Below, in pieces: positions 11,383-24,630 of a stretch of DNA of 64,000 nucleotides (position 1 is the stretch's first letter; each line of letters begins with the position of its first letter). The position numbers and the translations under genes were made by a program. Source of the DNA: Shinella fusca. GTDB lineage: Bacteria; Pseudomonadota; Alphaproteobacteria; Rhizobiales; Rhizobiaceae. Below the pieces are notes generated by a model. The model had not been told where the DNA came from, ran no database searches, and was given only the letters and a program-made list of their open reading frames with translations. The stretch covers positions 1 through 64,000 of the forward strand of contig NZ_JACHIK010000003.1 in NCBI RefSeq assembly GCF_014203155.1. The letters are read 5' to 3'.

Positions 11383-14300
11383 TCAGTTGAAGCGGCCGGC
11401 GGCGTGGGCGAGCATGGTGTAGACCTTGCCCGTGTCGGAGGTGAGGTAGGTCTGTGTCATCACCTTGTCGCGGTCGTTGCGGGCGACGTCGGCGAGCAGC
11501 TTCTCGAAATCCGAGATGTAGCGGTCGACCGCGGTGCGGAACTCCGGCTCGCGCTCGTACTTGCGCTTGATCTCGTCGAAGGTCTGCTGGCCCTTCAGCG
11601 TGTAGAGGCGGCGCGTGAAGACGTCGCGCTCGCCGCGCTGGTAGCGGCGCCACAGGTCGACCGAGGCGTCGTGGTCGATGGCGCGGGCGATGTCGACCGA
11701 CAGCGAGTTCAGCGATTCGACGACGTGGCGCGGGTTGCGGGCGTCCGTGGGGCGGGCCGCCTGGGCTTCGCCGCGCGGCTGGCCGAACTGGGCTTCCTCG
11801 CGCGAGACGGCGCCGCGCAGGAGATCGCGCATCCAGCCGCCTTCGCCGGCCGTCTTGGCGTCGGCCTCGGCGGGCAGGGGCTGCGCGCGCTGCGGCCCGG
11901 TGGCCGTTGCCGCACGCTCGATGCCGAGGCTGCCGCGCAGGGCCGGCTGCTCCTCGCGGCGCTGCTCGACGCGGGGCTGCTGCTGCACCGGCTGCTGGAC
12001 GGCGGCAGCCGCGTGAACGGCCGGCCGCGAGACTTCCAGCGCCGAGGACGACTTGCCGATGATATCGGAAAGGTCCTGCAGGGCCTTGATCTGCTCGGAG
12101 ACGGCGCGGCGCATCTGGGCCGCGTTCTCCTTGGCTTCCTCCGGCAGGTCGAAGGCGCCGCGCTTGAGTTCGCCGCGGGTCTGGTCGAGTTCCTTGCGGA
12201 TCTCGCTCGCCGCGCGGCGGATTTCCTCGGTGGCGCCGGAGAACTTGCCGATGGCTTCTTCCACGGCCTCGCGCATCGCGTCGCGCATGACGGCCGTGGC
12301 GGTCTCGGCCTTCTTGCCGGATTCGCCGAGCAGGCGGTCGACATCCGACAGCGAGGCGCCGACGCTGCCGCGCAGGCGGTTCGCCACTTCCTTCGTCCGC
12401 TCCTCGGCGCGCACGAAGGCGCCCTCGACGGACTGGCCCGCTTCCTCGCCGGCCTTGACCAGCGAATCCCGCAATGTGCTGGCGGCGGCCTCGGCGCGCT
12501 TTTCGGTCTCGCCGAGGATGCGGCCGACTTCGGCGAACGAGCTCTGGATGCCGCCGCGCAGGTTGCCGGCGATCTGGTTCGAGCGTTCCTCGGCGCGGCT
12601 GAAGGCGCCTTCCACCATGCCTTCGAGCGACTGCATCGTCTTCTCGATCTCTTCCGACCGCTGGACGAGGCCGATGGAGAGCGAACGCAGCGCGTCCTGG
12701 CGCTCCTCGAGCGTCGAGACGAGGTTGGACTGGGCGGCCGCGAGCAAGTCGGAGGCCTGCGACAGGATCTTCGAGTGATCCTCGAAGCGCCCGACGATGC
12801 CGCCGATCTGCGAGAGCGTGCCGGCGGAGATGTCGGAGAGGCGGTCGACCTTGCCTTCGAGCAGGCGCGAGGTGGTTGCGACCATGTCGGAGGCGCGCTC
12901 GGCCGAGTTGGTGAAGCGCTCGGCGGTGTTGGTCAGGCGGCCGTCGATGGCGCCGAGCGTCTGGCTGGCGGCGTCGACGATGCCGGCGATGGCGCCGTTG
13001 CTTTCCGAAAGGCGCTCGATCAGGCTTTCGACATTCGCCTGGAGGCCGCTTTCGATGGCGCGCATGGCGCCGGCGGCTTCTTCCGTGCGGCTGGTAATGG
13101 CGGCGAGCGTGTCGGCCGTGCGGGCGGAGATCGCGTTGATGAGCGCGGCGTTCTCGTTTCGCAGCCGGTCCGCGCTCTCGCGGGCGACACCGCTGATGCG
13201 CTCGGCGGCTTCGCGGCCGACGGCGGCATAGTCGTCGATGACCGGGCGGGCTTCCTCGTTGATGAGGCGCGAGAGTTCTTCCGTGCGGCTTGCCAGCATG
13301 GAATTGAGCTCGCGCGTGCGCTCGTCGAGCGTCGAGCGGATGGAGGCGCCACGCGTTTCCAGCGCCTTCTCGACATCGCCGAGGCCGGAGCGCAGCGACT
13401 GGGCGTGGTTTGCCAGCCGGCCTTCCGTTTCCGCAAAGCGGGCGACGGCGGAAGTGGTGGTTTCCTCGATGGCGCGGGTGAAGGCCTCGTTGCGGGACGA
13501 AAGGTTCTCGGCGAACTCTTCGCCGGTCTTGGCGATGGTCTCCGCGACGCGCTGGGCTTCCACGCCCATGTCCTGCGCCGCGCGCGAGACCGCGCCACGC
13601 AGCGAGGAGGAGAGGCTGGCGAATTCCTCGCCGGTCTTGGCGAGCGACTGGGCCGAGCGGATCGCTTCGGCATCCATGTCCTGCGCGGCCTGCGAAACGG
13701 CTTCGCGCAGGGTCAGGGCGAGGCCGGCGGCCTTGCCGTCGATGGTGCGGTTGACGCTGTCGAGGCCGATGGTGAGGGCCTTGTCCATCGTGCCGAGGCG
13801 TTCCTCGATACGGCCGGTCTTCTCGTCGATGGTGGCGGCGATGCGCTCTGCGGCCTCGCCGGAGACGCGCTCGATGTCGCCGACGCGGCTGGCGAGCGTG
13901 CCGTCGATGCGGGCCGCAGCCGCGCCGGCGATGCGTTCGATCTCGCCGGCCCGCTCGGTGAGCGTGCCTTCGATGCGTTCCGCGGCTTCCCCCGTCACGC
14001 GCTGGATTTCGCCGAGGCGGCCGGAAAGCGCGCCTTCGATGCGGCTTGCGGCATCCGTGCTGACGCGCTCGATGTCGCCCACGCGGCCGGCAAGCGCGGC
14101 GGCGATGCGCGCCGTCGTCTCGTCGCCGATACGGTCGACTTCGGCGATCGGGCGGGAGAGGGCGTCGGAGACGCGCAGCGACACGTCGCCGCCGACCCGG
14201 TCGAGATCGGCGAGACGCTCGGCAAGCGTATCGGAAATGCGCGAGGCGGCCGTGTCGACGATGCCGGAGACATTCTCGACGCTGTGCTCGATGCGGGCCT

Positions 14301-17067
14301 CCAGCTTGCCGAGGTTTTCCTCGAGCCGGCTGCCGGTCGTGTCGAAGCGGTTCGCCACGCTGTCGACCGTCTGCTCCATGCGGGCGCTGAAGGCGTCGGC
14401 GGCCTCGGCGATCTTGGTGGAGGTCTCGCCGAGGCGTTCGGCAACGGCGCCGGCGCTTTCGCGCACGCGCTGGTCGAGCAGGGCGGCGCTGCCGTCGATG
14501 GTGCGGCGCAGGTTCTCCTCGTGCTGCTCCAGCGACATTTCCAGCATGCCGGCGCTGGTGGCGATCGACGTGCCGATGGAGGTCGCCTGGTCGTTCAGCG
14601 TCTCGGTGATCTGGCTGCGGCCTTCGGCAATCGCCACGTTGATGGCGTTGATGCGGTCGTCGAGCGTGGCGCGGATCTGCTCGTGGGTTGAGACGAGCGA
14701 GCCGGCAAGCTCGGAAGCGCGGCCCGAAAGGGCTTCCGCGATCTCGGCGGCGCGGCCGGAGAAGGCCTCTGCGAATTCGGCGGCCTGGCCGTGCAGGACG
14801 CCGCCGAGCTCGCGGCTGCCTTCGGTGAGCACGCTTTCCACGCGGTCGGCGGCCGTGTCGATGGCCGACTGCATGGCGCCGGCGCTGTTGGAGAGCACGG
14901 AGGCAAGGTTCGCCGTGCGGCCGGTGATGACCTCGTCGATCTGGCGGGCGGCGCCGGTCAGCGCGGTCTCGACGCGGCTTGCGGCCGAGCCGACCGACTG
15001 TTCGAGCTGGCTGCCGGTGTCGTTCAGCATGGACGAGAGGGCGGCGGTGCGCTCGGTGAGCGCGCTGTCGAGGCGGTTGTGGCTGGCGGCGATGGTCGAG
15101 GTGATCTCGTCGGCGCGGGCGCCGAGCGCTTCTTCCATGCGGGCCTGGGCGGCCTGGATGTCGGTGGCGATCGCCGTGCCGCGGCTGTCGAGCGCATCCA
15201 CCAGGCGGCGCTCGCTGCCGGAGATGCTTTCGGCGAGCGCATCCGCGCGGGCGCCGAAGCCGTTCTCGATGCGGTCCTGCACCTCGGCAAGGCCCCCGAG
15301 CAGGGCGGCGGATTTTTCCGAAAGGACCGCGCCCATGCGCTCATGCGCGCCGCCGACGGCGTTGGTGATGGCGTCGGCATGGCCGGATACCGCGCTTTCC
15401 AGCACTTCCTGGCTGGTGGCGAGCGTCGTCGCCAGCGCGAAGGACTGGTCAGTCAGCGTGCTGCCGAGGCGGTCGATGCTGGTGGTGAGGATGCCGTCGA
15501 TCGCCTCGCGGCCGCTGGCGACCGTCTCGTTGATCCGGGCAAGGCTCTCCATCAGCTTGGAATCGAGCGAGCCGGCGCGCTGGTCGAAGGCATTGGCGAA
15601 TTCCTCGACGCGCTGGTCGAAGGCGCCGGCGATCTGGCCGATGGTCGTCTGCAGGCGTTCGTCGAAGAAGCCGGAGCGCAGGTCGAGGTCCATGACCGTG
15701 TCGTCGGCGGCGTTCTTGAGGCTCTGGCGGAACTGCGCACCCTTTTCGTCGAGGGCGGCGTTCATCGACTGGAGCACATGGTCGAGGCCGCTGGTGACGG
15801 CGTGCTGGCCGATGGACAGGCTCTCGCTGATCTCGCGGGTGCGGGCGATCAGCGTCTCGTTGAGCTGCTTTGCGCGCTCGTTGAGGGCGGCGTTCAGCTT
15901 TTCGGTGTTGATGTCGAGCGAGGTGGCGCGCGTCTCGAACTGCTGGAGCAGGTCGCGGCCGCGCGAATCGAGGCTCTGCGTCAGATGTTCGAGCCGGGTG
16001 TCGAACTCGTTGGCGAGCGCCACGCCCGAGGAGCTGAGGGTCGACAGCAGGCTGTCGGTGCGGGCCGAAAGCATGGCGCCGATGGTCTGCGTCGCGCTGT
16101 CGGACTTTTCCATCAGCATGGCGGCGCGGGTGTCGAGCATGGAGGCGAAGGCCTCGCCCGAGGTCGCAAGGCGCGCCGTGATGCTCTCGCCGGCGCTCGC
16201 CAGCTCGTCCTTGAGCTGCTCGTGGGCGCCGGAAATGGAGGAGCGGATGCGCTCGGCATGGCTGACGATGGCCTCGCGCTCGGTGCCCAGTTCCTGCACC
16301 AGCGTGCGCACGCGCATTTCATTGTCGGAATAGCTGCGCTCGAGTGCGTTGACTTCCGAATGGACGAGGGTTTCGAGCTCCGTCGCGCGGGCGATGGTGC
16401 GCTCGATGCCTTCGTTCATGGCGGAAACTTCGCGGCGCACGGCCTGGCCGACGGACATGATGCGGTCGGTGGCGACGGTCTCCGGCTCGGAGAGGCGAAG
16501 GGCGACTTCTGCCATGGAGCGGGCGGCGCTGCGCAGTTCGTGCGCACGGGCGATCATGATCGCGAAGGCGAAGAACAGCATGATCGGCATGACGATGGCG
16601 ACGACCATGCCGATGGCGCCGGGAAGGGCGAGGAGATCGGCGACCGAGCGGATCTGCCAGATCTGCGGGGCATAGAGGAGGTTGGCGACGCCGAGGCCGC
16701 CGACGATCCACAAGACCGAGGCGAGGATCGCCATGCGGACCGGACCGCGCGAGGAGCGCATGTCGAGCGACTTGAGGATTGCCGCCGGCGCCTTGCGCGA
16801 GCCGTCGTTGGCCGGCGTGAAGGCGGGCGCCTTCGGGGCCGGTTCGGGGGCGAGGGTGCGCGGGGTCTCGCCGGAGGCCGGCTTTTCCTGCGTCTTGTTG
16901 GAACGGCTTGCAGGTTCAGACACGCGGGCCTCCGAAGCGCTGTTCTTCGCGGGCGTGTCCTTGACGGGTGTGTCGGGCGCCAGATCGTCGAAATCGATCT
17001 TCAATGCTTCTTCAAGGGCCTGGAAGGCCTTGTCGTCGATCGACTCGGTGGGCTTGTTCGTCGCCAT
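11383..17067 (-). CDS. gpr: Growth pole ring protein-like (GPR/RgsE) giant coiled-coil membrane protein
   Basis: 1,894 residues. Residues 1-105 are charged and Pro-rich, two membrane spans follow (about 111-131 and 151-172), then about 1,500 residues of almost unbroken amphipathic helix with apolipoprotein A1/A4/E-like repeats, a Gln/Pro-rich linker and a conserved C-terminal domain of about 120 residues that contains VDLWRRYQRGERDVFTRRLY. This architecture matches Agrobacterium GPR and Sinorhizobium RgsE (about 2,100 residues), which form a ring at the growing pole needed for unipolar growth; that role is taken from the family. Start at 17067, GAGG nine bases upstream; upstream ATG codons at 17088 and 17175 lack good sites. 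It has its own terminator. It is often mislabelled kinesin-like. Confidence 0.8.
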   Translation of the reverse strand: MATNKPTESIDDKAFQALEEALKIDFDDLAPDTPVKDTPAKNSASEARVSEPASRSNKTQEKPASGETPRTLAPEPAPKAPAFTPANDGSRKAPAAILKSLDMRSSRGPVRMAILASVLWIVGGLGVANLLYAPQIWQIRSVADLLALPGAIGMVVAIVMPIMLFFAFAIMIARAHELRSAARSMAEVALRLSEPETVATDRIMSVGQAVRREVSAMNEGIERTIARATELETLVHSEVNALERSYSDNEMRVRTLVQELGTEREAIVSHAERIRSSISGAHEQLKDELASAGESITARLATSGEAFASMLDTRAAMLMEKSDSATQTIGAMLSARTDSLLSTLSSSGVALANEFDTRLEHLTQSLDSRGRDLLQQFETRATSLDINTEKLNAALNERAKQLNETLIARTREISESLSIGQHAVTSGLDHVLQSMNAALDEKGAQFRQSLKNAADDTVMDLDLRSGFFDERLQTTIGQIAGAFDQRVEEFANAFDQRAGSLDSKLMESLARINETVASGREAIDGILTTSIDRLGSTLTDQSFALATTLATSQEVLESAVSGHADAITNAVGGAHERMGAVLSEKSAALLGGLAEVQDRIENGFGARADALAESISGSERRLVDALDSRGTAIATDIQAAQARMEEALGARADEITSTIAASHNRLDSALTERTAALSSMLNDTGSQLEQSVGSAASRVETALTGAARQIDEVITGRTANLASVLSNSAGAMQSAIDTAADRVESVLTEGSRELGGVLHGQAAEFAEAFSGRAAEIAEALSGRASELAGSLVSTHEQIRATLDDRINAINVAIAEGRSQITETLNDQATSIGTSIATSAGMLEMSLEQHEENLRRTIDGSAALLDQRVRESAGAVAERLGETSTKIAEAADAFSARMEQTVDSVANRFDTTGSRLEENLGKLEARIEHSVENVSGIVDTAASRISDTLAERLADLDRVGGDVSLRVSDALSRPIAEVDRIGDETTARIAAALAGRVGDIERVSTDAASRIEGALSGRLGEIQRVTGEAAERIEGTLTERAGEIERIAGAAAARIDGTLASRVGDIERVSGEAAERIAATIDEKTGRIEERLGTMDKALTIGLDSVNRTIDGKAAGLALTLREAVSQAAQDMDAEAIRSAQSLAKTGEEFASLSSSLRGAVSRAAQDMGVEAQRVAETIAKTGEEFAENLSSRNEAFTRAIEETTTSAVARFAETEGRLANHAQSLRSGLGDVEKALETRGASIRSTLDERTRELNSMLASRTEELSRLINEEARPVIDDYAAVGREAAERISGVARESADRLRNENAALINAISARTADTLAAITSRTEEAAGAMRAIESGLQANVESLIERLSESNGAIAGIVDAASQTLGAIDGRLTNTAERFTNSAERASDMVATTSRLLEGKVDRLSDISAGTLSQIGGIVGRFEDHSKILSQASDLLAAAQSNLVSTLEERQDALRSLSIGLVQRSEEIEKTMQSLEGMVEGAFSRAEERSNQIAGNLRGGIQSSFAEVGRILGETEKRAEAAASTLRDSLVKAGEEAGQSVEGAFVRAEERTKEVANRLRGSVGASLSDVDRLLGESGKKAETATAVMRDAMREAVEEAIGKFSGATEEIRRAASEIRKELDQTRGELKRGAFDLPEEAKENAAQMRRAVSEQIKALQDLSDIIGKSSSALEVSRPAVHAAAAVQQPVQQQPRVEQRREEQPALRGSLGIERAATATGPQRAQPLPAEADAKTAGEGGWMRDLLRGAVSREEAQFGQPRGEAQAARPTDARNPRHVVESLNSLSVDIARAIDHDASVDLWRRYQRGERDVFTRRLYTLKGQQTFDEIKRKYEREPEFRTAVDRYISDFEKLLADVARNDRDKVMTQTYLTSDTGKVYTMLAHAAGRFN
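13822..14217 (-). repeat. Six tandem 66-bp (22-residue) repeats inside the GPR-like gene
   Basis: Six back-to-back 22-residue units fill exactly 396 bp. Each follows the pattern RxGxIxRVxxxAAxRIxxxLxx, beginning at RLADLDRVGG (base 14217) and ending at IAATIDE (base 13822). The four central units are closest to one another. A 22-residue (two times 11) period is the helical repeat of apolipoprotein A/E-type amphipathic helices. The rest of the rod shows weaker forms of the same period. Confidence 0.85.
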
Positions 17068-17342
17068 GCGGATACGCCTCGTTACCATGTCCGGGAACGG
17101 TCTTCCTGCGCGCCGCCGCTGCTCAGCCGCATTGGAACCGTCCGGTTGGCGGCCGGTCTTGCTGCAAACCCTCATGGCAAGCAGCGTCCGGACCGCCGTT
17201 CATTCCAAATTCGCTCGATAAACCGAAACGGTGAAACGGTGTATCTCCGCGCACGGTTTATCCACCGGGACTACCCGGTCGTATCGTAGTGACACATTAG
17301 CCTGTATCACACAATTCATTGCCATCTCCCTTCGCCCGAAAC

Positions 17343-17357
17343 TTAACAGGAAGTTAA
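17343..17357. promoter_or_regulatory. CtrA-type box TTAA-N7-TTAA
   Basis: TTAA at 17343-17346 and at 17354-17357 are separated by exactly seven bases (caggaag). This is the full CtrA recognition pattern of alphaproteobacteria. It lies 276 bp ahead of the GPR-like start and 240 bp ahead of the Hpt start, so it could act on either. Confidence 0.5.
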
Positions 17358-17414
17358 AATCCGGCGATTCCGTATCGCGATGGAATGCTTGCGAAAATGG
17401 CAATTTTTCAGCCG

Positions 17415-17422
17415 TTAACCAT
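17415..17422 (+). promoter_or_regulatory. CtrA half-site TTAACCAT
   Basis: The 8-mer TTAACCAT is the CtrA half-site seen in rhizobial promoters. It lies 58 bp from the full box at 17343-17357 in the same intergenic region, which makes both more believable. Confidence 0.45.
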
Positions 17423-17596
17423 AGTTTGCGATTCATGCCCATTTTGCGCCGTCTTTTAAGCGGATAGGCGCGCCGGCCACGCACAATGGCCCACCCCGCA
17501 ACCGAAGGCACGGCACGCCCGCCGCATGCCTCGCGCGGGGCCGGCCTGCGTCACAACGAAACAAGCGGTCTTCGCAACGACAAGGATTATTGGCAA

Positions 17597-17965
17597 ATGG
17601 CAGCGCTCAACATCGCCTTCGAGGCGCCGGACAATGCAAGCGGGGCCGGTCTTTCCGCCGGCCGGCCGATCGATTTCGACCATCTTGCCCGCCAGACGAT
17701 GGGCGACAAGGCGCTGGAGCTGGAGGTGCTGCAGATGTTCGCGCGCCAGGCCCGCGAGAGCATGAAGGAACTGGCGGGCACGGAAGGCGCGGCCCGCGCG
17801 GCCGTCGCGCACCGCCTCAAGGGCTCGGCCCGGGCGGTCGGCGCCGATGCCATCGCCGCGGCCGCCGGCAGGCTGGAAGACAAGCCCGCGGACGCCGCCG
17901 CGCTTGCGGGCGTCGCGGCCAGCGTGGTCGAGGCGGAAAACTTCATCCTCAAGCTCTGCCGCTGA
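17597..17965 (+). CDS. Hpt (histidine phosphotransfer) domain protein
   Basis: 122 residues forming a single four-helix Hpt domain. The phosphoacceptor His lies in AHRLKGSARAVGA near residue 77, followed by the usual small-residue helix. Such free-standing modules relay phosphate between hybrid kinases and response regulators. The partner is unknown; the CckA kinase in this window is one candidate, though CckA is normally served by ChpT, which is a different fold family member. Start at 17597 (MAALNIAFEAPD), where the conserved part begins; the upstream in-frame ATG at 17486 adds a low-complexity tail. Confidence 0.78.
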   Translation: MAALNIAFEAPDNASGAGLSAGRPIDFDHLARQTMGDKALELEVLQMFARQARESMKELAGTEGAARAAVAHRLKGSARAVGADAIAAAAGRLEDKPADAAALAGVAASVVEAENFILKLCR

Positions 17966-18140
17966 CCGTCGCGCCGGGAAAAGCCGGCGGCGCGCCCGGG
18001 CCTGCAAGGGCCGGGCGGGCGCGCGATGTTGACTGGGGAGGGGTTTTGTTGGAAACAACCGCCGGAAAACCGGCGGCCGGCCACGCCCCCGCCGGTCAGT
18101 CTACGCCCGCACGGGCAGCCTCTAGGATCCGGAAGCCATC

Positions 18141-18461
18141 ATGAGCAAACTCACCATCGTCGCCTTCGACGGCACGCGCAACGACCTCGATGTGGCAAAC
18201 GGCACCACGGTCATGGAAAACGCCGTGCGCAACTCGGTGCCCGGCATCGAGGCCGAATGCGGCGGGGCCTGCGCCTGCGCGACCTGTCACGTCTATGTCG
18301 ACGACGCCTGGAGCGCGGTCGTCGGCCCGCCGGAGGCGATGGAGGAGGACATGCTGGACTTCGCCTACGACGTGCGCCCCACCTCGCGGCTCTCCTGTCA
18401 GATCAAGATGTCGGATGCGCTGGACGGCCTCGTCGTGCATGTGCCGGAACGCCAGGCCTGA
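18141..18461 (+). CDS. 2Fe-2S ferredoxin, adrenodoxin type
   Basis: 106-residue soluble electron carrier. The cluster ligands are the cysteines of [11 protein letters not shown] (C-x5-C-x2-C spacing, near residues 40-48) and a fourth Cys near residue 85 in RLSCQIKM. The [16 protein letters not shown] block is typical of the adrenodoxin/Fdx group that serves cytochromes P450 or Fe-S assembly. No reductase or P450 gene is adjacent, so the partner is not known. A 175-bp gap with GC-rich inverted repeats precedes it. Confidence 0.9.
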
Positions 18462-18575
18462 CATCGTCCAGCCTTTCGTGACGTGACCGGCGGTCGCCGC
18501 CAAGGCGGCGGTCCCGTCCGTGCGCCGGAAGAACAGAACGGCGCGCTGGAAGTCTTTCCCGAAGAATAGATGGAC

Positions 18576-18614
18576 AAAAAAAGAGCCTCGCCGGTCGGTC
18601 AGGACGAGCGAGGC
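18576..18614 (-). terminator. Intrinsic terminator, minus strand
   Basis: Arms gcctcgc (18585-18591) and gcgaggc (18608-18614) with a 16-base loop, followed on the minus strand by tc and seven T (18576-18582). It lies about 270 bp beyond the DUF922 stop, too far to be a simple gene terminator, which supports a separate transcript. Confidence 0.75.
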
Positions 18615-18690
18615 CAGGAGGGCGCATCGCGGCAGGAGAGGGAGGAGACACCTGCTGCTTCTATTGGGACGCGCCAGGAGAACCTGTTGC
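18576..18690 (-). ncRNA. Candidate sRNA with anti-Shine-Dalgarno loops (alpha-r14/NfeR-like)
   Basis: On the minus strand about 115 bases fold into a chain of hairpins. A short one has stem caggNNNNcctg (18675-18686). A second has arms at 18629-18636 and 18651-18658, and its 14-base loop contains CTCCTCCC (18640-18647). A single-stranded stretch CCCTCCTGG follows (18614-18622), then a terminator with seven T. Loops rich in CUCC can pair with ribosome-binding sites of mRNAs. Length, order and loop motif recall the rhizobial alpha-r14 family (NfeR) and the related CcsR/cuckoo RNAs, as remembered rather than searched. The 5' end is a guess. It could instead be a long 3' trailer of the DUF922 gene, 192 bp upstream. 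Confidence 0.5.
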
Positions 18691-18882
18691 AAACCATTAC
18701 TGCGACTTCGGGAAGGAACGAACATCTTCCCGTTCAGTGTTGAAATGAAAATACGGTGATTTGCGGAATTGCGCTATCGCTAGAATTCACCAGTCATTTC
18801 ACGCATGCGCTCCCGCATCGCGCCCGATCCGGTCCATCTGCATTAAGGGGATTTCAAGAAATACATGCGCGGCCGCGCGGCC

Positions 18883-19503
18883 TTACTGCAGCTTGCTCTT
18901 GAGGCGGTGGGTGAGGAGCCGCATCATGCGATCGTTGAAGTTCTTCGATTCCACCTTGTCGAAGCGGGCCTGGTCGGCGTCGTGCTTCGATACGGCGTCG
19001 GCGGTCGCGCGGTCGACGCGGGCCTGCATGCGCTCGCAGTCGGCCTCCGGCGGCAAGCGCTTCAAGGTGCGCTCCAGCTCGCGGGCGTGGTTGCGCGCGA
19101 TTTCGGCGTGGCGTTCCTCGTGGCGCTTGATATCGGCGGAAAGCGTGTCCCAGATCAGGGCGAGCGAGGGCGTTGCGCGCTTGCGGTTCTTCCAGCGCGG
19201 CAGGATGATCTTGGTCGAGAGCGTGACCTTCGCGTCGCCCACGGCGCAGCGGTTGCCGCGCTTCACATAGGTGACCGAGCCGCCCCACTTGATCTTGGTG
19301 GCGCCGGGATGGCGCGAGCCGTTGTGCATCATCACCGGGCCGCGCTTGCCCAGTTCCTCGTCGAGCTCGGCAGCCGTGTGCCCGCCGACGGAGAAATAGG
19401 CGAAGGACTTGGAGGTGATCGTCTCCGCGCGGGCGGACTGGAAAGCGAGGCAGGCGAGGGCACCCAGGGCACCAAGCGCCATCAGGCGGGCGACGGTCTT
19501 CAT
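18883..19503 (-). CDS. DUF922 secreted protease-like protein
   Basis: 206 residues with a clear signal peptide (cut after about residue 26, FQSARA). The body carries the DUF922 pattern, a family predicted to be zinc-dependent secreted proteases. The HEERHAEIA segment supplies a HExxH-like metal motif in the middle of the protein, and GRxxY-like turns and two Cys (possible disulfide) are present. Enzyme activity is inferred, not shown. Two in-frame ATGs compete: 19503 starts directly at MKTVARL, and 19515 has AAAGGA touching it, so spacing favours 19503. Transcribed away from folP. Confidence 0.75.
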   Translation of the reverse strand: MKTVARLMALGALGALACLAFQSARAETITSKSFAYFSVGGHTAAELDEELGKRGPVMMHNGSRHPGATKIKWGGSVTYVKRGNRCAVGDAKVTLSTKIILPRWKNRKRATPSLALIWDTLSADIKRHEERHAEIARNHARELERTLKRLPPEADCERMQARVDRATADAVSKHDADQARFDKVESKNFNDRMMRLLTHRLKSKLQ

Positions 19504-19648
19504 ACGGGTCTGCATTCCTTTTGCCGCCGGGTCCTTGCGGCGGTGGGCCGGCGAGGAGGCCGGTTGAACTTCCGCCAACCTTGGGGCATAGGCTCGGCGA
19601 GCGCAACACCCTTTGCCGGGTGCTGGTTAACCGCCGAAGGAAACCGTC

Positions 19649-20521
19649 ATGTTCTCGCCGTTCGATCCCTTTGACTGGAGGCTCGCCCATGGCCGGCATC
19701 TGGAGCTCGGCCCGCGCGGCCTCCTGATGGCCATCGTCAACGTCACGCCCGATTCCTTTTCCGACGGCGGCCGGTTCGATAGTGCCGACCGGGCGGTCGC
19801 GCAGGCGATCCTCTGTCTGGAAGAGGGCGCCGCCATCGTCGATATCGGCGGGGAATCGACCCGGCCGGACGCCGCGCCCGTGGCAGCCGCGGAGGAGCAG
19901 GACCGCATCCTTCCCGTTATCGAGGCGCTGGCCGGCACGACGGACGCCATCATCTCCGTCGACACCTACCGCGCCGAGACCGCGCGGCTTGCCGTTGCCG
20001 CCGGCGCGCATATCGTCAACGACGTGCACGGTCTCCAGCGCGAGCCCGGCATCGCGCGCGTCGCCGCCGAGACCGGCGCGGGGCTCTGCATCATGCATAC
20101 CGGCCGCGACCGCCGGAAGCTGCCCGACGTGGTGGAGGACCAGTATCTCTTCCTCGGCCGCTCGCTGGAGATCGCCCGCGAGGCGGGCGTTTCGCGAGAG
20201 GCCATGGTGCTCGATCCCGGCTTCGGCTTCGCCAAGGACACGGACGAGAATCTGGAGCTGATGGCGCGTTTCGGCGAGCTCTTCGGCTTCGGGCTGCCGC
20301 TTCTCGCCGGTACCTCGCGCAAGCGCTTCGTCGGGGCCGTCACCGGGCGCGATGCGGATGCGCGCGACGTGGGTACGGCCGCGACGACGGCGCTGCTTCG
20401 CGTTGCCGGCGCGGCGGTGTTCAGGGTGCACGATGTCGCAATCAACAGGGATGCGCTTGCCATGGCGGATGCTATGCTGGCGTCAGGGCGCAAGGTGAAG
20501 GCGCGCGAGACGCACGCCTGA
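19649..20521 (+). CDS. folP: Dihydropteroate synthase
   Basis: 290 residues. It joins p-aminobenzoate to 6-hydroxymethyl-dihydropterin pyrophosphate, the sulfonamide-sensitive step of folate synthesis. Hallmarks are MAIVNVTPDSFSDGG near residue 27 and DIGGESTRPDA near 69, then SVDTYRAE, LDPGFGFAKD and the AGTSRKRFVG loop. It is the first of three folate genes in order folP-folB-folK, with 23 bp to folB. Start has a GAAGGA ribosome site. Confidence 0.96.
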   Translation: MFSPFDPFDWRLAHGRHLELGPRGLLMAIVNVTPDSFSDGGRFDSADRAVAQAILCLEEGAAIVDIGGESTRPDAAPVAAAEEQDRILPVIEALAGTTDAIISVDTYRAETARLAVAAGAHIVNDVHGLQREPGIARVAAETGAGLCIMHTGRDRRKLPDVVEDQYLFLGRSLEIAREAGVSREAMVLDPGFGFAKDTDENLELMARFGELFGFGLPLLAGTSRKRFVGAVTGRDADARDVGTAATTALLRVAGAAVFRVHDVAINRDALAMADAMLASGRKVKARETHA

Positions 20522-20544
20522 CGGCGGGCCAGACAGGACGAACC

Positions 20545-20913
20545 ATGACCAGCACCTATACGATCACGCTCAAGAACTGCGCCTTCTTCGCCCGCCACGG
20601 GCTGCACGACGCCGAGGAATTCCTCGGCCAGCGCTTCTTCGTCGATGCGGAACTCGACGTGCGCCCGGAGCGCCCGCTTTCCGACGACGATATCGAATCG
20701 ACAGTCGACTACGGCGTCGCCTTCAAGGAGATCGAGAAGATCGTGCTCGGCCGGCGCCGCTACCTCATCGAGGCGGTGGCGCAGGAGATCGCCGTCGCGC
20801 TCTGCGCCCGCTTCCCGCAGATTTTTCGCGCACGGATTACGGTTCGCAAGCCGAGCGCGCCGGTTCCGGGCGTGCTCGATTATGTGCAGGTAACGGTCGA
20901 CCATGCCGTCTGA
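20545..20913 (+). CDS. folB: Dihydroneopterin aldolase
   Basis: 122 residues, the normal length. It splits 7,8-dihydroneopterin to 6-hydroxymethyl-dihydropterin and glycolaldehyde, giving the substrate for FolK. Conserved parts are the LKNCAFFARHGLHDAE start with the catalytic Glu, the ESTVDYGVAFKEIE strand-helix and RITVRKPSAPVPG with the conserved Lys. It lies between folP and folK and its end overlaps the folK start by 11 bases, a sign of coupled translation. Confidence 0.95.
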   Translation: MTSTYTITLKNCAFFARHGLHDAEEFLGQRFFVDAELDVRPERPLSDDDIESTVDYGVAFKEIEKIVLGRRRYLIEAVAQEIAVALCARFPQIFRARITVRKPSAPVPGVLDYVQVTVDHAV

Positions 20914-21421
20914 GGTGTTCCGCCGGGCCGCGCTCGGCCTCGGCGGCAATATCGGCGATCCCGTCCGCGCCATGGCCGATGCCCTGCAGGCGCTCGACGG
21001 GCGGGCGGATTGCCGCATCGCCGCCGTCTCGCGGCTCTATCGCACGCCGCCCTGGGGCAAGACCGACCAGGACTGGTTCTTCAACGCCTGCGCGCTGGTG
21101 GAGACGACGCTTTCCCCCGAGGCGCTGCTCGACACCTGCCTCGGCATCGAGCGCGACATGAAGCGCGAACGCAAGGAGCGCTGGGGACCGCGCACCATCG
21201 ACATCGACGTGCTGACCTATGAGGGCGTGGCGCAGGCCGGCGGCCGGCTGGAGCTGCCGCATCCGCGCATGACCGGCCGCGGCTTCGTGCTGATGCCGCT
21301 CGCCGACATCGCGCCCGCGATGGAGGTCGAGGGGGGCGCGGTGGCGGACTGGCTGAAGGAGGCGGATGTGGCGGGGATCGAGCCGGCGAGCGCCGGCCCG
21401 GAGTGGTGGCGGGTTACTTGA
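20903..21421 (+). CDS. folK: 2-amino-4-hydroxy-6-hydroxymethyldihydropteridine diphosphokinase
   Basis: 172 residues. It transfers pyrophosphate from ATP to the pterin made by FolB. Typical motifs are LGLGGNIGDP at the start, RTPPWGKTDQDWFFNACA, the RERKERWGPRTIDIDVL block that binds ATP and magnesium, and LPHPRMTGRGFVL. Third gene of the folate operon. Its 3' end overlaps by 8 bp the convergent gene for a secreted protein. Confidence 0.96.
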   Translation: MPSEVFRRAALGLGGNIGDPVRAMADALQALDGRADCRIAAVSRLYRTPPWGKTDQDWFFNACALVETTLSPEALLDTCLGIERDMKRERKERWGPRTIDIDVLTYEGVAQAGGRLELPHPRMTGRGFVLMPLADIAPAMEVEGGAVADWLKEADVAGIEPASAGPEWWRVT

Positions 21422-21962
21422 TCGAACCGACCGCGATGTCGTCGAGATTGCGGTCGAGCGACAGGCCGATGACCGGGATCATCCGGCTTTCGACTTTCAC
21501 CGAGATGGTGATGTTCATCTTGTTCTCGCTTTCGAGGCGAGCGATCATCGCGCCGTTGAGCTTCTGGCGGTTGATGCCGACGACGACCTTGTTGCCGGCG
21601 ACCTGGCCGGAGGTGATGTCGAGGCCCTTGCCGGCCGCCCCGTCGAGGAACTTGCCCTTGTAGGTGCCGCCCGAGCGGGTGATCAGCGCGGACATCGGCT
21701 GCTTAAAGACGCCGACGCGGCAGAAGCCGTCGAGCTGGATGCCGGCATCCCTGGCGGCTGCCGGATCGCCCGTCAGGTTGCAGTTGAACTTGGTGCCCTT
21801 GTACTTGCCGGCGACGATCTCGCCGCTGCCCTGCCAGTTGCCGGCGACCTGATCGAAGAAGGCCTTGTCGCGCGAGCCTGCGGCGGCCGGAAGGGCGAAG
21901 GTGGTGGCTGCGAGGATGGCCGCTGCGGAAGCGCGGGCGATCAAAGAAGTGCGCGAATACAT
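21414..21962 (-). CDS. Secreted protein of unknown function
   Basis: 182 residues. A signal peptide ends near residue 28 (ALPAAAG); the mature part (GNWQGSGEIVAGKYKG onward) is rich in Gly, Lys and small residues and looks beta-rich, with two Cys that could form a disulfide. No family I can name with confidence. The start at 21962 has AAGGATC ahead of it. A TTAACCAT site on the minus strand (22026-22033) lies 64 bp upstream. It converges on folK. Confidence 0.7.
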   Translation of the reverse strand: MYSRTSLIARASAAAILAATTFALPAAAGSRDKAFFDQVAGNWQGSGEIVAGKYKGTKFNCNLTGDPAAARDAGIQLDGFCRVGVFKQPMSALITRSGGTYKGKFLDGAAGKGLDITSGQVAGNKVVVGINRQKLNGAMIARLESENKMNITISVKVESRMIPVIGLSLDRNLDDIAVGSIK

Positions 21963-22111
21963 GAACGATCCTTGACGGGCGATGGCCATCTGGCCTGCTT
22001 TTCTGGCGAGAAGGTTTGCGCGAAAATGGTTAATGGACAGTTTCCCGCCATGCCCGGCCCGCAGGATTTGATATCGGCTCACGCCCGGAAAACCGGGGTG
22101 TTGCCGTGAGG

Positions 22112-23161
22112 TCACGCTTCGTCGCGCCGGCCGGCCGCCGAACCCGGTGCAAGGTCGCCGATGAAATCGCCGATGCCCGGCCGTTTCAGCGCTCGGAAGG
22201 GCATCGGGCGGCAGAGGTCCATGGCGGCGATGCCGATCCGCGCCGTCATCAGCCCGTTGATGACGCCTTCGCCGAGCCGCGCGGAGAGCTTTGAGGCAAG
22301 CCCGTGGCCGAGCACCTGCTGCACGAGGCTGTCTCCCATGGCGATCGACCCGGTGACGGCAAGATGGGCGATGACGTCGCGCATCAGCCGCAGCATGCCG
22401 ATCTTGCCTGGATGCCCGCCGTAAAGCTCGGCCATGGCGCGCACCAGCCGGCTGCTCTCGAAGATCACGTAGCCGAGGTCGACGAGCGCGCGCGGGCTAA
22501 CCGCCGTGACGATGGAGACGCGCTTGGCCGCGCCGAGGATGAGGGCGCGGGCCTCGCGGTCGAGCGGGGCCATGAGCTCGCGTTCGGCAAGGTCGACGAG
22601 CTGGGCGGCGTCGATGATCTCGCCCTCCGTCTCGGCGAGCCGCGCCCGGCCGCGCGCCGTCTGCGGGCGGGCGGCGAGGAGGTGGACGAGGCGGGCGACG
22701 ATGGCCCGGCCGACGGCCGGCGAGGGCGAGGCCGCCGCGTCCGCGATATCGCGCTTGAGGTCCTGCACAGCGGCAAGGCCGCGAAGGCCGGAAAGTTCGC
22801 GCACGACGAGGCCGAGGAGCGCCAGCACCGCGACGGCCGCGGCCGCCAGCGCCAGATAGCCGAGCCAGTCGTTGCGGCTGAAGAGGTCGCGGATCAGCGC
22901 GTCCACCCACAGGCCGACGGCGAGCGAGACGAGGAGGCCGAGCGCGCCTGTCGCGATTCGCCCGAGCGTCAGGCGGCGCGGGCGGGGCGTCGCCACCGGC
23001 GGCACGAGGTCCGGCAGGCCGGCGGTCGTCTCGATGAACGGGTCCTCCGCATCCGGCGTCAGCGTCACCGCATCCTCGAAGGCGGCGGGGCGGCGGGGCT
23101 CTTTTTCCGGTGCGTCGGGGGAGAGCGAGAAGGCGGCGGGCCTGCGCGGACGGTCGGTCAT
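22112..23161 (-). CDS. ycjF: YcjF-like inner membrane protein (UPF0283/TIGR01620, DUF697)
   Basis: 349 residues. A charged N-terminus of about 65 residues, two membrane spans (about 68-88 and 100-122), then a helical region and the DUF697 domain (RALVDLGYVIFESSRLVRAMAELYGG). The family is almost always paired with the GTPase-like YcjX, as here: the start codon overlaps the ycjX stop by four bases (ATGA). Function is unknown; in enterobacteria the pair belongs to the sigma-32/phage-shock neighbourhood. Confidence 0.85.
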   Translation of the reverse strand: MTDRPRRPAAFSLSPDAPEKEPRRPAAFEDAVTLTPDAEDPFIETTAGLPDLVPPVATPRPRRLTLGRIATGALGLLVSLAVGLWVDALIRDLFSRNDWLGYLALAAAAVAVLALLGLVVRELSGLRGLAAVQDLKRDIADAAASPSPAVGRAIVARLVHLLAARPQTARGRARLAETEGEIIDAAQLVDLAERELMAPLDREARALILGAAKRVSIVTAVSPRALVDLGYVIFESSRLVRAMAELYGGHPGKIGMLRLMRDVIAHLAVTGSIAMGDSLVQQVLGHGLASKLSARLGEGVINGLMTARIGIAAMDLCRPMPFRALKRPGIGDFIGDLAPGSAAGRRDEA

Positions 23162-24630
23162 GCGAGCCGGTCTCCGATGAGATATTGCAGCGCGCGGTCG
23201 AGGCGGATGTGCGGCACCGACAGTTTCAGGCCGCCGCCGGTCTCCTCGATATGCGGCGGGCGGAAGCGCACGAAGTTGAGGAGCGGCGGATCGCCTTCGG
23301 AATGCGATTCAAGTTCCTGAAAAAGCGAGTCCGGATTCTTCGGCAAGTCCCCGGGAAATATGGCGGTTTTCCTCTCGCCGTCGAAGGTCTCGCCGTCGAT
23401 CGTCTCGCCCGCCATCGGCGTTCCGACGATGACCGGCAGGTTCTCGCCGTCGTGCTTGACGGTCGCCTCGCGGGTGGCGCGCACGGAGGCGAGCGCCATC
23501 ACCTCGATGCCCGCCCCGCTCATGCCGATGCGCTCGATGGCCCGCTCGACGAGCCGGCGCGTGACGGCCTCCAGCCGCGGATGGCTCTCGTGGTGCAGGT
23601 GGTCGGCCTTGGTGGCGGCGATCACGATGCGGTCGATGCGCCTCGTGACGAGCGAGGAGAGGAAGCCGTTGGTGCCGGCGCGGAAGCAGTCGAGCACGTC
23701 GCCGAGCGCGCGTTCTAGGTCGTGCACGGCCTCCGCGCCGCGGTTGATCGCCTGGAGCGCGTCGATCAGCACGATCTGCCGGTCGAGGCGGGCGAAATGC
23801 TCGCGGAAGAAGGGGCGAACGACATGGGTCTTGTAGGCCTCGTAGCGGCGCTCCATCATCGCGTGCAGCGAGCCCCGGGCCGGTTTTCCCTCCGGCAGGC
23901 CCGGCAGCGGTGCGAAGGTGAGGGCGGGCGAGCCTTCGAGGTCGCCGGGCATCAGGAAGCGGCCGGGCGGCAGGGTGGAGAGCGAGCGTTCGTCGGATTT
24001 GCAGGCCTTCAGGTAGGCGGTGAAGCTCTCCGCAAGGGAACGCGCCGTCGCCTCCTCGGCCGCGGCGGCGGGATCGACGGTGGCGGAAAGGGCGAGCCAG
24101 TCGCGGGCAAGCTCGGCGCGGATGCCGGAGCCGGCGAGCGCCACGGTATTTTCGCTGAAGGTGCGGAAATCCTGCCCGAGCAGCGGCAGGTCGAGCAGCC
24201 ATTCGCCGGGATAGTCGACGATATCGATGGAAAGGCGCCCCGGCGAGAACATCCGGTTCCAGCCGGAGGCGCTTTCGTAGTCGAGCGTGATGCGCAGCTG
24301 CGAGATGGCGCGGGTCGAATCCGGCCAGAGCCGGTCGGCGACGAGGGCGCGGATATGGTCCTCGTACTGGAAGCGCGGCACGGCATCGTCCGGCTGCGGC
24401 TCCAGCCTGATCTTCGAGACGCGGCCCGAGCGCACCGCTTCGAGCAGCGGCAGGCGCCCGCCGTTGAGGAGATTGTGCACGAGGGAGGAGATGAAGACCG
24501 TCTTGCCGGCGCGCGAAAGGCCCGTCACGCCGAGGCGGATCGACGGGTTGACGAGGCCGGCGGCGCGCCCGGCGAGCGTATCGAGCGCCAGCAGGGCGTC
24601 GTCTGTGAGGGTGGTCAGGCTAGGCGGCAC
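23158..24630 (-). CDS. ycjX: YcjX-like P-loop protein (DUF463)
   Basis: 490 residues. The P-loop is GLSRAGKT near residue 42, and DIVDYPGEWLLDLPL matches the Walker B/switch region of this GTPase-like family. Start is a GTG at 24630 with GGAAAG about eight bases before, giving a protein that begins PPSLTTLTDDAL; the frame remains open farther upstream but without a start in context. Its stop overlaps the ycjF start. The pair is likely one operon; what it senses is unknown. Confidence 0.87.
   Translation of the reverse strand: MPPSLTTLTDDALLALDTLAGRAAGLVNPSIRLGVTGLSRAGKTVFISSLVHNLLNGGRLPLLEAVRSGRVSKIRLEPQPDDAVPRFQYEDHIRALVADRLWPDSTRAISQLRITLDYESASGWNRMFSPGRLSIDIVDYPGEWLLDLPLLGQDFRTFSENTVALAGSGIRAELARDWLALSATVDPAAAAEEATARSLAESFTAYLKACKSDERSLSTLPPGRFLMPGDLEGSPALTFAPLPGLPEGKPARGSLHAMMERRYEAYKTHVVRPFFREHFARLDRQIVLIDALQAINRGAEAVHDLERALGDVLDCFRAGTNGFLSSLVTRRIDRIVIAATKADHLHHESHPRLEAVTRRLVERAIERIGMSGAGIEVMALASVRATREATVKHDGENLPVIVGTPMAGETIDGETFDGERKTAIFPGDLPKNPDSLFQELESHSEGDPPLLNFVRFRPPHIEETGGGLKLSVPHIRLDRALQYLIGDRLA

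Follow-up and report, generated by a model that had tools for sequence, protein, structure and literature searches.

The C7 small RNA of Agrobacterium tumefaciens is encoded between atu1350 and atu1351, and the passages that describe it report 20-fold enrichment with Hfq in minimal medium, a visible signal on Northern blots, and lower levels in a Δhfq strain in minimal medium (PMC4201532). Searches of open-licence papers gave no target or regulator of C7. Here, we analysed a 64,000-nucleotide stretch of Shinella fusca DNA (positions 1 to 64,000 of contig NZ_JACHIK010000003.1; the window), in which a sequence-only reading had proposed an unannotated, trans-acting small RNA (sRNA) with an anti-Shine-Dalgarno loop, about 115 nt long and resembling the alpha-r14/NfeR family, on the minus strand at positions 18576-18690. 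As judged by covariance models and comparison of homologues, this feature is a small regulatory RNA with a conserved anti-Shine-Dalgarno loop, and it belongs to the already catalogued Atu_C7 family.

A scan of positions 14000-24000 against 4227 Rfam families gave one significant match, RF02501 (Atu_C7), at 18731-18580 (minus strand), with a score of 49.9 bits against a cut-off of 45 and an E value of 3.8e-9. The complete model was aligned at the locus (model positions 1-157), and this was the sole match above cut-off in the whole window. The feature is therefore not unannotated as had been thought. The score lies near the cut-off because the 5' part diverges. In addition to the score above the gathering cut-off, the locus shares with the family its covarying secondary structure and its context, a DUF922 gene lying upstream on the same strand in 29/29 family matches. 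The E value and the covariation across 50 homologues place the feature far beyond chance. We take Rfam Atu_C7 to be the Hfq-bound C7 of A. tumefaciens, from its name and from the Agrobacterium loci that score 173-192 bits. Hfq binding and expression as a small RNA are known for A. tumefaciens C7 only, and for the Shinella copy we infer them by analogy.

Membership of the alpha-r14/NfeR1 or CcsR/cuckoo families would account for a similar anti-Shine-Dalgarno loop, a similar core length and the same proposed target class. However, the ar14 model (RF02344) was silent at this locus at E values up to 10, both in the Rfam scan and in a whole-genome run, and the same model identified strong copies at three other places in the genome (120.7, 97.3 and 95.5 bits). 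Each of these carries three copies of TCCTCCC, against one here, and instead of the three anti-Shine-Dalgarno hairpins of ar14 we found one within helix P1, plus a terminator hairpin. The Atu_C7 promoter element described below scored at most 5.1 bits around the ar14 copies. The earlier assignment to alpha-r14/NfeR was therefore dropped as highly improbable. Membership of CcsR/cuckoo also appears improbable: the Rfam scan, whose families may or may not include a CcsR model, gave no CcsR match, and there is one CCUCCUCCC-type loop here, against the repeated hairpins of the CcsR/cuckoo RNAs. The ar14 copies (L111-L113) are at G000:C3:324861-324985, C24:3481-3606 and C3:325163-325286, of which two form a tandem pair spaced by about 180 nt; all three lack the Atu_C7 promoter element.

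Other candidate identities were also considered. No alpha-r15/AbcR model matched at the Atu_C7 locus in the scan of 14000-24000. The sX13 RNA of Xanthomonas (RF02232) gave a weak overlapping match at chance level (19.6 bits against a cut-off of 50, E 3.4), and EcpR1, which the passages that mention it place between divK-pleD and rpmG in S. meliloti, occupies a different locus. SmelC165 was dropped as the possible S. meliloti name of the Atu_C7 RNA, as the literature passages on it gave no neighbouring genes to match.

The minus-strand sequence is as the sequence-only reading described, and its proposed hairpin fold was borne out: 18695-18576 folds at -44.9 kcal/mol compared with a shuffled mean of -36.3 (z -2.56; 4/200 shuffles equally stable). 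Helix P1 is formed by the arms GGCGCGUC (18668-18675) and GAUGCGCC (18621-18628), with 97.7% of cells paired, and encloses helix P2, formed by GCAGG (18651-18655) and CCUGC (18632-18636), with 90.7% of cells paired. P2 is capped by the loop CUCCUCCCUC (18638-18647), the main anti-Shine-Dalgarno seed, and within it CTCCTCCC (18647-18640) lies in a hairpin loop as had been claimed. The predicted intrinsic terminator (18576-18614) also held, with a G+C-rich GCCUCGC..GCGAGGC stem at 18614-18585 (the fourth covarying helix, 94.0% of cells paired) followed by a U tract at 18584-18576; a simple terminator scan did not report a terminator at 18614-18576. Across 50 sequences, four helices were backed by covariation, namely P1, a 3-bp continuation of it, P2 and the terminator stem. 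Pairing was kept in 94.1% of cells, with changes on both sides in 15/26 pairs, and there were 115 double-change cells compared with 37.5 in shuffles (0/500 shuffles as high). When partners were slid by 1-3 columns, pairing fell to 30-50%; this control matters most, since related sequences can exceed shuffles without any structure. In principle, the locus could be no more than the DUF922 terminator region, a strong terminator behind a gene on the same strand, with a chance fold. Covariation beyond the terminator, in P1 and P2, together with the Rfam match, the conserved upstream element and the Agrobacterium Northern blots (PMC4201532), makes this explanation scarcely credible.

Two C/U-rich strands are both open and conserved in the Atu_C7 core. 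The P2 loop was unpaired in 50/50 core folds, as were the stretch 5' of P1 and the linker leading into the terminator. The loop core CCTCCC was present in 47/50 cores and in 68/76 named homologues found without motif selection (in L028, one of the 29 Rfam matches, the counted CCTCCC sits in the 5' box and not in the loop), whereas the full window loop CTCCTCCC was present in 7/50 cores. The loop core CCUCCC is conserved, and the proposal of a trans-acting type of sRNA with an anti-Shine-Dalgarno loop and an intrinsic terminator is supported. The other strand is a mostly single-stranded 5' box, GUUCUCC (18677-18683, with UUCUCC at 18682-18677), which is the first anti-Shine-Dalgarno-like seed and in which the final two letters of UUCUCC show partial pairing when the full window copy is folded. 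TTCTCC was found at this place in 27/29 Rfam matches and in 64/76 named homologues, again without motif selection. Conservation of the 5' box is inflated in the 50-row alignment A1, because loci were chosen for it by a motif on that box; 7/109 loci failed the motif, including three that carry the sRNA (L002, L080 and L106), 2 further loci without a T run were dropped, and the 100 that were left were reduced to 50.

The sequence-only reading had paired the loop with a second single-stranded motif, CCCTCCTGG. Its position in the linker (alignment columns 75-80) is indeed unpaired in the 50 core folds, but in the window copy the motif is partly paired (mean unpaired probability 0.49), its first two C's closing P1 and its last two G's entering the terminator stem, and its letters vary. 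CCCTCCTGG was present in 8/50 non-redundant homologues, and the linker letters CCCUCCUGG (18614-18622 in the window) in 4/29 Rfam matches and in 18/76 named homologues without motif selection. The two conserved open C/U-rich strands, UUCUCC and the CCUCCC loop, are therefore not the pair named in that reading, which overlooked the 5' strand. Two observations concern the more variable 5' domain. A second hairpin, CGGGAAG..CUUCCCG, lies at 18732-18709 (minus strand) and by eye is kept in most Shinella rows (L031-L042), with alterations in L035, L040 and L041. Several Shinella sisters have a short ORF beginning in this domain, also seen by eye, the start of which is absent in the window copy and which stops early in L031; we do not regard it as conserved.

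The sRNA lies in a conserved gene order. Upstream on the same strand is the DUF922 gene (18883-19578, minus strand; PF06037, 149.6 bits; start codon uncertain), the stop codon of which is 192 nt from position 18690 as had been described, and on the other side a convergent 2Fe-2S ferredoxin gene (18141-18461, plus strand; PF00111, 43.4 bits). The best 12 named DUF922 loci were all from Shinella, with 80-89% protein identity. RF02501 matches were found in 29/151 genomes of the same family at E values up to 0.001, 24 of them above cut-off, and the ferredoxin gene was within the 3-kb locus in 26/29. A covariance model built from 50 non-redundant cores (R1) detected the sRNA in 76/80 named DUF922 loci, 25 of the 80 having been used in building it, with record titles including Shinella, Sinorhizobium, Ensifer, Rhizobium, Agrobacterium, Neorhizobium and others. 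Four named loci had no R1 match (L067, L072, L097 and L107), of which L067 stops at a contig edge. The order DUF922, sRNA, convergent ferredoxin was kept in 75/76 named loci, the exception (L071) ending first. Some named and unnamed loci come from the same genome (for example L021 and L037). Elsewhere in the neighbourhood, the window encodes a long, repetitive, coiled-coil-looking ORF of 1930 aa (11383-17175, minus strand), near which lies an Hpt-domain gene (17486-17965, plus strand).

The sRNA is single copy in the genome, with an R1 score of 92.1 bits against 16.2 for the next best match. Among 297 genomes of the order, an R1 search with strict filters, by which weak true members may be missed, identified nothing convincing outside the family. 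Weak matches of 26-37 bits in 10/297 other-family genomes were by eye mostly terminator-like and were left out of the counts. Neither DUF922 nor ferredoxin was present within the locus DNA of 12 loci examined (11 outside-family R1 matches and one same-family locus). Three weak R1 matches in another family of the order (L127, L131 and L134, family f6) have a 5' CCTCC strand, one hairpin and a terminator, with no DUF922 or ferredoxin in the locus, and are possibly a separate small RNA family.

The region between DUF922 and the sRNA contains a conserved element that we interpret as its promoter. An EM motif finder applied to 86 upstream regions reached a log-likelihood of 1243, compared with 109-118 in three shuffled runs, and returned a 30-bp element with the consensus CAGtaaATnActGGTGAnTTCTaGCgATaG, at 18774-18803 (minus strand) in the window. 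The window copy scored 39.1 bits, compared with at most 13.5 in 20 shuffled windows, and the element exceeded 13.5 bits in 97/102 loci, with five lacking it; the matrix was scored on its own training loci, with the shuffled runs and genome-wide searches as controls. Exactly 20 nt after the element, 72/97 loci have a -10-like hexamer, most commonly TATATT and in the window TATTTT (18748-18753), whereas 25/97 have it at another offset. Its first two letters (T51 and A52) are nearly invariant in alignment A2, and some loci have only a weak hexamer (GTAGCT in L095, L103 and L104; TACNTT in some Shinella). A sigma-70 consensus scan of the locus found no promoter and no recognisable -35, in line with a promoter that depends on an activator. 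R2, a sequence-only model that covers element and -10 and was built from 49 loci, had only one match in the window genome, at the sRNA locus, and one match each in 18/101 family genomes, 16 of the 18 at the sRNA locus. Two genomes had a weak R2 match without a reported sRNA (G026 and G091), and at least one (G014) had an RF02501 match but no R2 match. A pattern search allowing up to 3 mismatches placed the element at 6 sites in the genome, of which one, at the sRNA locus, was exact.

The position of the -10 suggests where transcription starts. In the Agrobacterium-type loci L095, L103 and L104, the hexamer at the 20-nt offset is GTAGCT, yet the first base of the Rfam model falls 8-9 nt past it, where a transcription start would be expected. 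Elsewhere this base lies at differing distances from the -10 (17 nt in the window, 24 in L036, and about 126 in L048 and L054), so the Rfam 5' end is no test of the start outside Agrobacterium loci. From the Agrobacterium spacing and the conserved -10, we predict a start near 18740 in the window and a transcript of about 165 nt (18576-18740, minus strand) ending at the U tract. The length of about 115 nt given earlier thus describes the conserved core at 18576-18690 well, but not the predicted full transcript, and the interval 18690-18720, in which the sequence-only reading had expected the start, was probably misplaced. Most loci belong to one of two classes of element-to-core distance, about 90-125 or about 215-235 nt, and Sinorhizobium-type members should therefore have a longer 5' domain, the predicted RNA in Sinorhizobium being about 250-260 nt long.

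The sRNA could instead be produced only by processing of the DUF922 mRNA 3' UTR, with no promoter of its own. It shares the strand of DUF922 and lies 192 nt past the end of that gene, conservation between genera is poor immediately 5' of the core, and both the silent sigma-70 scan and the misfit of the Rfam first base with the proposed start outside Agrobacterium are in keeping with processing. However, this would leave unexplained the 30-bp element between DUF922 and the RNA with its -10-like hexamer at fixed spacing, the restriction of element plus -10 to a single site in each of the genomes where R2 matched, nearly always beside the RNA, and a distance from DUF922 stop to core that varies from 153 to 699 nt across loci. 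We therefore consider processing alone unlikely, and that the sRNA probably has its own promoter.

A GANTC site occurs within 26 nt after the element in 41/97 loci; the offset is 12 for 30 of these sites. In Sinorhizobium, Ensifer, Agrobacterium and others (for example L043 and L104) it lies a few bases before the -10 at a nearly fixed place, and it was found in 0/14 Shinella rows, as though Shinella had lost a cell-cycle input. We presume this to be a CcrM-type site, and treat a CcrM/GcrA connection as a lead only.

Genes were also examined by the spelling of their Shine-Dalgarno sequence, with sites defined as the pattern 4-9 nt before ATG and ORFs of at least 100 aa, longest per site. Three spellings were compared: AGGGAGGA, the C7-type flank; TGGGAGGA, which fits the ar14 loops better; and AAGGAGGA, a standard strong control. 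AGGGAGGA had 31 sites in the genome (reversed-pattern control 2) with 23 ORFs, TGGGAGGA had 24 sites (control 0) with 21 ORFs, and AAGGAGGA had 56 sites, all examined (control 8), with 33 ORFs; 8/31, 3/24 and 23/56 sites, respectively, were dropped as short. ABC-transporter parts, judged by hand from Pfam tables, made up 10/23 of the AGGGAGGA genes and 13/21 of the TGGGAGGA genes, compared with 2/33 for AAGGAGGA (Fisher p 0.0018 and 1.3e-5, on sets unadjusted for other differences between them). Pooling the two GGGAGGA-type classes gave 23/44 against 2/33 (p 1.5e-5). TRAP-type binding proteins (L218 and L284) were not scored as ABC parts, and an NMT1-type binding protein (L278) was. Shinella genome G075 has 30 AGGGAGGA sites, against 31 in the window genome, and nine AGGGAGGA genes are shared by the two at an identity of at least 90%. 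Six of these are ABC parts, with substrate types read from their Pfam families: an ATPase, a permease and four binding proteins, of which three are sugar-type and one is peptide-type. The other three encode ureidoglycolate lyase, a CoxG protein and a 2Fe-2S subunit.

This signature is not assignable to the Atu_C7 RNA alone, since the three ar14 copies in the genome carry similar loops; these RNAs would be expected to compete for the same sites, and the signature is stronger for the ar14-type flank (13/21) than for the C7-type flank (10/23). The GGGAGGA spelling in binding-protein genes might also have another cause. Being single copy and having two C/U-rich strands that are conserved and open, the RNA could mainly bind some other partner, acting as a sponge for another sRNA or contacting a protein, and its mRNA targets are so far predictions. 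Against this, the complement of the loop matches the Shine-Dalgarno sequences of an ABC-transporter-rich gene class, and we give such a partner only a small chance of being the main one.

Taken together, these results make it likely that the locus encodes a single-copy, independently transcribed, Hfq-type base-pairing sRNA of the Atu_C7 (C7) family of rhizobia and agrobacteria, which would mainly block ABC-transporter and catabolic mRNAs. In this model, an activator-type promoter, comprising the 30-bp element and a -10 at fixed spacing with no recognisable -35, would start the transcript near 18740, and the terminator would end it near 18576. P1 and P2 would keep the loop UCUCCUCCCUC open, with the second C/U-rich strand UUCUCC directly 5' of P1. 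Translation would be blocked where the loop and UUCUCC pair with Shine-Dalgarno sequences of the GGGAGGA type, the targets being mainly ABC-transporter and catabolic mRNAs. For the Shinella Atu_C7 RNA, we infer Hfq-assisted silencing of nutrient uptake, and the predicted targets and direction of regulation likewise. A more speculative extension, which we hold tentatively, is that the C7 RNA has a dedicated input (the 30-bp activator site fixed to the -10, joined in many loci by the CcrM-type GANTC) and a coded output, its loop reading a special Shine-Dalgarno spelling. The GGGAGGA spelling may be a genome-wide code for anti-Shine-Dalgarno sRNAs; if so, it would let several such sRNAs address the uptake regulon as a class. 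What this analysis adds is the private element upstream of the RNA, a covarying core in which two strands are open, and a spelling signature in the Shine-Dalgarno sequences of uptake genes. With its boundaries, its covarying structure, an element conserved like the RNA itself and nine candidate targets, C7 function becomes directly testable in rhizobia, and the spelling result suggests a general rule for how rhizobial anti-Shine-Dalgarno sRNAs pick uptake genes.

The closest relative, Agrobacterium C7, and the Shinella copy share the DUF922-sRNA-ferredoxin order, the loop core and the terminator. They differ in the 5' domain, which has diverged in Shinella (49.9 bits against the 173-192 bits of L095, L103 and L104), and in the GANTC site near the -10, which most Agrobacterium loci have and the 14 Shinella rows (L020, L021 and L031-L042) lack. 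The SmelA075/SmelA099 and RS0680a family is described, in the passages concerned, as having CCUCCUCCC hairpin loops as here, but the hairpin is repeated two to four times and each genome has several copies, unlike the Shinella Atu_C7 RNA (PMC3927594). Three further likenesses are drawn from passages of a single source (PMC7143759). Alpha-r14/NfeR1 (RF02344) also has anti-Shine-Dalgarno loops and transport-protein mRNAs as predicted targets, and alpha-r15/AbcR1 and AbcR2 are likewise Hfq-binding RNAs with C/U-rich anti-Shine-Dalgarno motifs and ABC-transporter-rich predicted targets; the ABC-rich candidate class found here matches the target class of AbcR and NfeR1. In contrast, AbcR1 and AbcR2 form a tandem pair flanked by SMc01226 and lsrB in S. 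meliloti (PMC7143759), and alpha-r14/NfeR1, multicopy and with three anti-Shine-Dalgarno hairpins, is unlike the Shinella Atu_C7 RNA in fold, upstream region and locus.
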